Source: Candidatus Peregrinibacteria bacterium CG_4_10_14_0_2_um_filter_38_24 (lineage in GTDB: Bacteria; Patescibacteriota; Gracilibacteria; UBA1369; LOWO2-01-FULL-3). From it: a stretch of DNA of 49,928 nucleotides. Location: positions 4,126-54,053 of the forward strand of contig PFOM01000016.1 in assembly GCA_002792535.1 (NCBI GenBank), in the 5' to 3' direction. A program made the position numbers and the translations under genes. This document shows, piece after piece, positions 11,744-49,593 of this stretch. The first letter of the stretch is position 1. Each line of letters starts with the position of its first letter. The notes beneath the pieces were generated by a model. It saw only the letters and a list, made by a program, of their open reading frames with translations. It was not told where the DNA came from and ran no database searches.

Positions 11744-11893
11744 AAGAATAGGGAAGAAATTTTATTTGAAAAATATTCCGAACTTAGCCGAGCATCACGA
11801 TGCGAGGCTTTTGCGAAGGGCGTACATGTTAGCCCGAGCAATATGGCTGCGCCATGCGAGGTATTTTTCAAATAAAATTTCTTCCCTATTCTT
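11744..11893. repeat. 32-bp perfect inverted repeat flanking an 86-bp spacer
   Basis: The arms at 11744-11775 and 11862-11893 are perfect reverse complements over 32 bp. The spacer is GC-richer than its surroundings and holds smaller palindromes: GCATC-AC-GATGC near 11790 and ATGGC-TGC-GCCAT near 11845. It lies between the divergent S-layer and dnaJ genes, ending three bases before the CIRCE operator. The whole gene-free stretch 11559-11966 contains this repeat, the CIRCE/promoter and nothing else I can identify. Confidence 0.9.
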
Positions 11894-22473: not shown

Positions 22474-22510
22474 TGAAAAAGGGAAGATATGTCCACTCTC
22501 AATAGATTGT

Positions 22511-22527
22511 GCAAATCTCGCTACTTA
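22511..22527. repeat. 17-bp dispersed intergenic repeat, copy 1
   Basis: The 17-mer GCAAATCTCGCTACTTA covers the NAD kinase stop codon and its 3' flank. An identical copy lies at 46185-46201 directly after tRNA-Ser. In both places it is immediately downstream of a minus-strand gene. Confidence 0.6.
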
Positions 22528-25222: not shown

Positions 25223-25438
25223 ATGACTGAAGAAAATTTACAAGATTGCGACATTATTTTTTACTGCAAGGATTGCGAAGAAGTTGTTGAAACAAACAGA
25301 GTCGGTAGAAAATATGTTTATACCTGCAAGAAATGCGGGACTAAAAATGTGGCTTTCGGAACGAAAAAAAGCATCTCTTCTTTTTTCAGGCTCGATGAGC
25401 CAAAACCGGGAGAAAAAAAAGTTGTTGTTCCAAAATAA
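25223..25438 (+). CDS. small zinc-ribbon protein
   Basis: A 71-residue protein with two CxxC knuckles (FYCKDCEEVV at about 14-23 and YTCKKCGTKN at about 33-42), the arrangement of a zinc ribbon. The C-terminus is basic and Lys-rich. It lies 10 bp downstream of a four-helix membrane protein with an acidic tail, so an interaction is possible but unsupported. Its role is unknown; related ribbons occur in nucleic-acid-binding and chaperone-associated proteins. Confidence 0.65.
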   Translation: MTEENLQDCDIIFYCKDCEEVVETNRVGRKYVYTCKKCGTKNVAFGTKKSISSFFRLDEPKPGEKKVVVPK

Positions 25439-25445
25439 TTTTATA

Positions 25446-25584
25446 AAAATGTAGGACATATTCCCTGCTGACAATCGTGTTGCAGTTGAGGATTTTAACA
25501 TGTACAAATCCTCAACGTGTCATGATACATGATCATGACACAAGCAACACAAGGATTGTTCACAAGAAATATGTCCTACATTTT
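25446..25584. ncRNA. highly structured intergenic element (three-way junction)
   Basis: The strand of action is unknown. The nested stems are nearly perfect. Outer stem: 25446-25462 with 25568-25584 (17 bp). Second stem: 25471-25483 with 25544-25559 (13 bp with a 3-nt AAG bulge). Inside it are two abutting hairpins: 25485-25495 with 25506-25516 (11 bp, 10-nt loop) and 25517-25526 with 25532-25541 (10 bp, 5-nt loop). Together they draw a Y-shaped fold of 139 nt. It could be a structured RNA, a single-strand DNA recombination substrate, or a miniature mobile element. It lies between the zinc-ribbon gene and the recA promoter. Confidence 0.6.
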
Positions 25585-25675: not shown

Positions 25676-25704
25676 TTGACGGTGAGTGTATGCTCACCTA
25701 TACT
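25676..25704 (+). promoter_or_regulatory. recA promoter with embedded palindromic operator
   Basis: TTGACG (25676-25681), a 17-bp spacer and TATACT (25699-25704) end 30 bp before the recA ATG. The spacer is almost entirely a perfect dyad, GGTGAG-TGTATG-CTCACC (25681-25698). A repressor bound there would sit between -35 and -10, as LexA does at SOS genes; the identity of the repressor is inference. Confidence 0.7.
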
Positions 25705-25734
25705 GTAGGTACTTTATCAAATAACAACCATCCT

Positions 25735-26820
25735 ATGTCTGTAAAAAATGAAATAAAAAACGAAAAAAATAAAGCTATAGATTTAGCAATAGCTCAGATA
25801 GAAAAAAACTTTGGGAAGGGCTCTATTATGAAAATGGGGGAAGAAGCTAGAGTGCCTATCGAAATAATATCAACCGGTTCTCTTTCTCTTGATGTAGCGT
25901 TGGGAGGTGGAATTCCGAGAGGAAGAGTTGTAGAGATTTTTGGTCCTGAAAGTTCAGGAAAAACGACTTTGAGTCTTCATATTTTGGCTCATGCACAAAA
26001 AGCTGGAGGAACAGTTGCCTTCGTGGATGCAGAACATGCACTTGATCCTGAATATGCCAGAAAAATAGGTGTTGATGTTGATGCTCTTCTTTTGGCTCAA
26101 CCCGATAGCGGTGAACAAGCTTTGGAAATAGTTGAAACTCTTGTAAGAAGTGGCGGAATTGATGCGATTGTAATAGATTCTGTCGCGGCGTTAACTCCAC
26201 GCGCTGAAATCGATGGAGACATGGGAGATTCGCATATGGGACTTCAAGCAAGGCTTATGAGTCAGGCTCTACGCAAACTTACTGCAATCACGTCAAAAAC
26301 AAATACTACCGTTATATTCCTGAATCAGTTACGCATGAAAATCGGAATTATGTTTGGAAATCCTGAGACCACGACAGGCGGACAGGCACTAAAATTTTAT
26401 GCTTCTGTTCGTATGGACATAAGAAGTATTGGAAAAATCGAAGATACCGGAAGTACTGAAAAAGAGCTTGTTGGAAATCGTGTAAAAGTAAAAATAGTTA
26501 AAAATAAGATTGCTCCACCTTTCAAAATAGCTGAATTTGATATTCTTTATAACAAAGGAATTTCATTTGAAGGAGACCTTCTTGACCTTGCCACTAAATA
26601 CAATATTGTGAGAAAGGCAGGCGCTTTCTATAGCTATCATGATGAGAAATTGGGACAGGGGCGTGAAAGCGCAAAGAATTTCCTTTTGAGAAATGCAAAA
26701 ATAACAAAGGAAATAGAAAAGAATGTGAAAACTTTTATTTCCGGGAATGTTGCTGAAATCGCAAAAGCAATAGTTGAACCTGAAAAATCTAAACAACCAG
26801 AACCAATCGAAAATGACTAA
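25735..26820 (+). CDS. recA: recombinase RecA
   Basis: A 361-residue RecA, the ATP-dependent strand-exchange protein of homologous recombination and SOS induction. It has the N-terminal polymerisation motif [14 protein letters not shown], Walker [11 protein letters not shown] (about 69-78), the Walker B region [12 protein letters not shown] and the L2 loop region [21 protein letters not shown] chose the ATG at 25735 because upstream in-frame codons overlap the promoter and the RecA N-terminal helix starts just after it. The stop codon overlaps the recX start. The promoter carries a dyad consistent with damage-inducible control. Confidence 0.97.
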
Positions 26821-49188: not shown

Positions 49189-49593
49189 TTATTGCCTGCA
49201 TTGATTTTGAATATACTTTCTGATAATATTTTCCGAAACTACGCTATGAGTGGAGACAAAATATCCATCTGACAAAAAACTATCACCCCAAAGAAATTCT
49301 TGAAGTTCGGGAAATTCTTTCCTAGTTCATTTGGAGCTACCGCCTTTCATGAACTGCATTATTAACGATGGCGAATATCTTGGCTTAGCAGATAACAAAA
49401 CATGCACATAATCCGGTTGAATTGATAATTCCATGATCTCAAATTGGTTTATATCAGTGCATTCCTGAAATAGCTGCTCAAGCCTATCTTTGACTTTATC
49501 GGTTAGAACCCTTTTTCTATATTTCGGAATCCAAACAAAGTGATATTGGATATTATATGTGGCATTACACGTTGTTTTTCTCATATACCACAT
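49189..49593 (-). pseudogene. tnpA: IS200-type transposase TnpA, interrupted by an in-frame TGA
   Basis: The frame from ATG 49593 encodes a Y1 transposase start (YNIQYHFVWIPKYRKRVL) and runs to SLIMQFMKGGSSK, then meets TGA at 49327-49329. Reading through, the same frame continues TRKEFPELQEFLWGDSF and SDGYFVSTHSVVSENI, with the catalytic-Tyr helix RKYIQNQ, to a TAA at 49189. A CGA-to-TGA change would explain the stop. The HUH motif is also damaged: PDYVHVLL in place of PDHVHLL, with the first His replaced by Tyr. The protein is therefore probably inactive. Confidence 0.85.

Follow-up and report, generated by a model that had tools for sequence, protein, structure and literature searches.

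What is the strongly palindromic sequence that lies ahead of recA in this Peregrinibacteria genome (G000)? The original prediction, made from the window (the whole stretch of 49,928 nucleotides analysed here), offered three possibilities: a structured RNA, a folded single-strand DNA recombination substrate or a miniature element mobilised in trans. The sequence occupies positions 25446–25584, between an ORF of 71 aa (25223–25438) and recA (ORF 25690–26820; PF00154 match, E 3.8e-134).

Fold and relatives of the recA-side element

The predicted nested four-stem Y with a three-way junction was borne out. An outer stem is followed by an internal loop, a bulged stem and two hairpins that abut at the junction, and both strands fold far beyond chance: the plus strand at -66.5 kcal/mol (z -11.6) and the minus strand at -77.8 kcal/mol (z -13.5), with none of 200 shuffles as stable in either case. 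The minus strand folds better because the wobble pairs fall on its side; the outer stem comprises 17 bp without wobbles and 23 bp on the minus strand.

All parts are given as read on the minus strand. In the MFE fold, the 5' arm of the outer stem P1 (25562–25584) pairs with the 3' arm (25446–25468), where changes relative to the congeneric genomes G001 and G002 are compensated. Beyond the internal loop, the stem has 6+7 bp with a 3-nt bulge. According to the fold and the copy alignment described below, the P2 5' arm with one side of the internal loop spans 25554–25561, and the P2 3' arm with the other side spans 25469–25475; the loop is GA/CA here and GA/GA in most copies (35 of 62 aligned). 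The bulge between P2 and P3 (25551–25553) reads CUU, and N-U-U in most copies. In P3, supported by the fold and by compensated pairs, GUGUUGC (25544–25550) pairs with GCAACAC (25476–25482). Hairpin P4 (25517–25541) has 10 bp and a 5-nt loop with the word CAUG, and nearly every copy has a CANG word in this loop. Hairpin P5 (25484–25516) has 11 bp and a 10-nt loop, GUACAUGUUA, for which the consensus across copies is CGUACAUGUUAG.

BLAST of the element against its own genome returned no repeat, so that it looks single-copy; one short-word match elsewhere in that genome (L023) was attributed to chance. Among 99 related genomes, three of the same genus contain related sequences. The G003 relative lies at the same place beside recA and is 99% identical, while its flanks are only 86% identical. 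In the sister species G001, 91% identity extends over exactly 139 bp (L006:1501-1639), but between the NAD kinase (NADK) and PPDK genes; this shared unit, together with the folds, delimits the whole element at 25446–25584 on the minus strand. In G002, the relative is divergent and lies in the groES/groEL spacer.

The original prediction had proposed a covariance search of related genomes, and this search yielded homologues in which all stems are kept through compensating changes. Within the genus, a first model (R1) detected 7–11 copies in each genome; it also detected copies in other families of the order, and by covariance model the source genome holds approximately 15. With a second model (R2), carriers amounted to 27 of the 353 genomes of the class, all from one order (27 of its 89 genomes), with 1–15 copies each; close relatives without the element exist. 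In a sample of the phylum, R2 matched only already known carrier genomes. A loop-pattern scan of 84,980 species gave 13 matches, none of them outside records of Peregrinibacteria, Peribacteria or Gracilibacteria. Three pattern matches in viral contigs raised the possibility of phage carriage, which was discarded as the covariance model confirmed none of them. The window itself contains a second, diverged copy, whose core as matched by the model lies at 11758–11879 on the plus strand (R2 41.4 bits, E 4.8e-9; fold -82.3 kcal/mol, z -10.2). Its outer stem is long and near-perfect, and it has one extra hairpin.

The element family is previously unnamed and known only from one group of tiny Peregrinibacteria. 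As far as Rfam and the literature were searched, the earlier statement that no named family has this layout holds; the literature search, of incomplete coverage, found no paper on palindromic elements in Peregrinibacteria.

Conservation of the fold and signs of a single strand

On the better-folding strand, the members of the family share a long P1 with a 5' arm that is purine-rich at the foot and T-rich inside, an internal loop, a P2 of 6–7 bp, a 3-nt bulge ending in UU, a P3 of 7 bp, and P4 abutting P5, with CAUG and CGUACAUGUUAG as their recurring loops. Every one of the 44 modelled pairs has changed on both sides over the 62 copies aligned. Paired cells represent 94.4% of that alignment against 54.2% after shuffling, percentages that lean towards the model because the alignment was fitted to it; nevertheless, the individual folds of single copies, which are independent of the alignment, agree with the model. 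The covariation score is 0.945, compared with 0.207 for shuffled and 0.08–0.14 for slid alignments. In the first four sequences alone (G000–G003), 18 pairs have changed on both sides. The copies have the same Y fold and loops, with stems almost devoid of common sequence.

Variations on this layout were observed. Copies in G061 and G068 (L190-L192, L195 and L196) have a longer, branched P4 with two extra hairpins. In G007, the element at L112-L118 is nested inside a larger repeat of ~270 bp, which has additional hairpins and an outer inverted repeat of its own (GCAATCTTATTCTG...CAGAATAAGATTGC). Conserved loop-loop kissing was considered, as CATG is self-complementary, but rejected since, where the words change, the better-folding strand shows no compensation (CACG with CACG, CAAG with CATG).

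We compared the numbers of G-U and A-C pairs, counted in the folds of both strands. They are similar in P3–P5 (38:47) and in P2 (18:19), and the outer part of P1 has no consistent tilt (63:84 at its outermost, 26:11 in the next segment). In the inner 11 bp of P1, the ratio is 60:2, the kind of single-strand signal that an RNA would be expected to give. Thus, the better-folding strand matters at least in inner P1, and the majority of helices act as Watson-Crick arms without strand preference. Between close same-site pairs, two-sided Watson-Crick replacements equal or exceed one-sided ones in several cases (e.g. 4:1, 5:2 and 2:1), but not for L092/L099 and L079b/L168. A purely DNA-level reading of the arm symmetry is therefore too strong, given the inner P1 ratio and the mixed same-site pairs.

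Rfam contains no gathering-level match at the element, its best permissive match being far below the cut-off, and a riboswitch or other known RNA was dismissed on this basis. An intrinsic terminator was rejected too: no U-tract follows P1 (2.6 T in 8 positions, 2.4 expected), and no terminator-like site was found.

Mobility, placement and strand polarity

Orthologous sites were read side by side. G000 and G003 carry the 139-bp unit at recA, and in G001 it lies at NADK/PPDK, with the recA and groES/EL sites empty; the exonuclease/ftsA site and the L083 site are empty in both G001 and G003. A regulator specific to recA was discarded, as G001 has no element at that gene. The NADK/PPDK spacer of the window contains a half-element remnant (TTTGCACAATCTATTGAGAGTGGACATATC; 22474–22524, minus strand), where the same spacer of G001 holds a full element. 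Other half elements are found in G003, next to its recA copy, and in G002, at the L075 site. Near-identical copies occur at different sites, and three copies of G006 have nearly the same core and different outer stems. In the queG genes of G000 and of G016, which belongs to another genus, a copy appears to have inserted in frame, with the reading frame open through the element in both cases. No consistent target-site duplication emerged from the comparisons of filled and empty sites. By these sequence comparisons, copies of the element appear to move, with no excision or transposition event itself observed. The idea of a miniature element mobilised in trans is thereby supported, by filled and empty sites, moved near-identical copies and the 27 carrier genomes; no mobilising enzyme was found.

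Some sites are occupied in several species, namely recA, groES/EL, exonuclease/ftsA and RsmE/PPase, which a useful element could also show. The groES/EL copies of G000 and G002 have opposite orientations, yet they are each other's best match, at 79%. Opposite orientations were also found at the RsmE/PPase site, for copies from different subfamilies.

A different palindromic insert is present at about the same position as the element in queG of G001, G002 and G003 (L143, L153 and L158), with one copy per genome, an invariant core, CTCGGCCGGCCACCAAGGGAGCCTGC, and stems that differ yet stay complementary. The queG gene of G016 carries a further in-frame insert near the C-terminus (L108; ...SVIPATSVIPAKGGIF...), which resembles translated repeats.

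The median distance from a gene 3' end to the element core is 23 nt, and it is at most 60 nt for 75 of 96. Convergent spacers account for 27 of 75 classified intergenic copies compared with 20 of 154 in the background (p 1e-4, a generous value since orthologous and recent copies are counted and the copies are not all independent). Divergent spacers are depleted, with 6 of 75 copies called divergent, at least two of which, at recA sites, are miscalls due to the 71-aa neighbour falling below the ORF threshold. Along co-directional genes, 20 copies are in sense and 22 in antisense orientation.

The strand of the element is the locally C-rich one for 54 of 61 copies with a local skew >0.05 (p 4e-10, similarly generous, with the same direction repeated in most genomes), and the polarity is 68:12 at third codon positions. 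Long ORFs, as a control, distribute 165:189 relative to the skewed strand, so genes have no such polarity. On the 998,424-base contig of G007, all seven copies share one strand, and GC skew stays below zero wherever it was sampled round the contig. The two strongest exceptions (L084 and L096) are the two cases of same-site inversion. Orientation is thus tied, as shown statistically, to the strand asymmetry of the chromosome and not to genes.

The skew of G007 is of interest in itself. It ranges from -0.25 to -0.39 in 20 of 20 sampled stretches (L220-L239), with no origin or terminus switch seen. Such a uniform-skew pattern was reported for Microgenomates in a study in which Peregrinibacteria genomes were called typical (PMC7143001).

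Nature of the element and known systems

Since the fold is conserved and the copies are mobile and strand-polar, the element is probably processed, in folded single-strand form, at the replication fork. We favour, with some reserve, the view that the recA-side sequence belongs to a dispersed family of mobile, palindromic and strand-polar elements of one Peregrinibacteria order, working in the manner of Rickettsia palindromic elements or of single-strand elements recognised by their hairpins. The element would move, or be copied, at the fork while folded as a single strand, and a putative trans-acting enzyme would read the bulge, the internal loop and both hairpin loops. The stems would drift freely, with template-switch copying at the fork homogenising the arms and sometimes inverting the interior; selection may also keep them complementary if only folded copies are mobilised. 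Template switching explains double changes (PMC8794818), and it likewise accounts for homogenised arms and inverted spacers (PMC8604942). Were the C-rich strand the lagging product, the strand to be expected on the lagging-strand template would differ from the best-folding one, so that either strand may be the active one. The effect on the host is probably neutral, with insertions directly behind stop codons or, within a protein loop, in frame. The single-strand recombination substrate of the original prediction consequently becomes the likeliest mode, on the strength of an orientation fixed to the chromosome strand and not to genes, although no enzyme was found for it.

The main rival, which we regard as unlikely, is a structured RNA at transcript 3' ends (an mRNA stabiliser, an RNase III site or a regulator transcribed from either of the convergent genes), which now and then spreads by transposition and is kept for its function. 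It would account for the proximity to gene 3' ends, the enrichment of convergent and depletion of divergent spacers, the inner P1 ratio, the recurrent tandem G-A loop and the sites occupied in several species, but not for the balance of sense and antisense copies, the near-equality of G-U and A-C pairs in P2–P5 or an orientation that follows the chromosome strand, and neither a U-tract, a terminator-like site nor an Rfam family speaks for it. Of the RNA proposal, what remains is the single-strand signal of inner P1 and the G-A loop.

Two further explanations dispense with transcripts. Inverted repeats might perpetuate themselves without a mobility system, with template switching at paused forks making, perfecting and occasionally inverting palindromes that recombination spreads. 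This mechanism is known (PMC8794818, PMC8604942, PMC6649704) and would produce near-perfect Watson-Crick arms, double substitutions, in-place inversions and G-U counts close to those of A-C in the inner stems; however, it fails to explain why loops, bulge and GA/GA loop recur across families of the order and why whole units are inserted at clean empty sites, which makes it less credible still than the RNA. Least probable of all, and by our estimate very improbable, is a polar chromosome-maintenance site of the FtsK-orienting or replication-terminator type, its direction bound to the replichore. The orientation bias with strand composition, the intergenic placement and the ~15 copies fit such a role, whereas the patchy occurrence (27 of 89 genomes, 1–15 copies, absence from close relatives), the apparent in-frame insertion in queG and the many empty orthologous sites do not.

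Among known systems, the mobile family resembles most the Rickettsia palindromic elements (RPEs), which are also strongly palindromic, ~100–150 bp long and dispersed in a reduced genome, insert both in intergenic regions and in frame in conserved protein genes, and likewise have no known mobilising enzyme (PMC2229807). The 139-bp unit and its ~15 copies in the source genome correspond to that size and dispersal, and the queG cases appear to match the in-frame insertions. In contrast to RPEs, only the loops, bulge and internal loop are conserved here and all stems covary freely, the fold has a three-way junction, orientation follows the chromosome strand, and the lineage is another one. RPEs are reported to lose repeat identity with time (PMC6649704), whereas the Peregrinibacteria arms stay near-perfect. 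The element thus works most like an RPE but is not classed as one, as its copies share no stem consensus and its host is not Rickettsia; this separation is made by description.

MITEs such as ERIC and Correia/NEMIS are similarly small, non-autonomous spacer palindromes with terminal inverted repeats (PMC2229807). Unlike theirs, the termini of our element are not a conserved sequence, the outer stem varying from copy to copy, and no parent transposon was found. REP/BIME are hairpin elements whose single-strand form is recognised by the RAYT (Y1) transposase. The GTAG/CGTC tag of that system, at the foot of the hairpin, is not conserved here: G000 has GTAG, whereas the G001 copy, 91% identical, has GCAG. 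Integron attC sites are recognised as folded single strands, with structure conserved above sequence; the present layout differs, with no integron integrase in carriers and no cassette arrays seen.

A more ambitious proposal, which we consider possible but doubtful, is that of a class of mobile DNA recognisable almost only by its fold: a three-way-junction single-strand element with fixed letters only in the two hairpin loops, bulge and tandem G-A loop, inserted or retained in line with the polarity of replication by a putative enzyme of ultra-small bacteria, and with stems rewritten by template switching. Families conserved in fold and not in stem sequence evade ordinary repeat finding, BLAST having been blind to ~15 copies here. 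Strong covariation, which is usually taken to prove a functional RNA, can also be the mark of mobile DNA, as this family shows. For bacteria known chiefly from metagenomes, it also offers a natural record of replication-linked insertion and of template switching.

Candidate mobilising enzymes were searched for in the genomes. The Y1 transposase does not track the element, as the carriers G001–G003 and G007 have no PF01797 match. For the integron integrase, only G078 exceeds the TIGR02249 cut-off, no element was found in that genome, and no carrier has one. Both were rejected as mobilisers for lack of correlation with carriers. Separately, a Y1 transposase gene with an internal TGA is present near the contig end in the window (49201–49560, minus strand; PF01797, E 3.0e-39).
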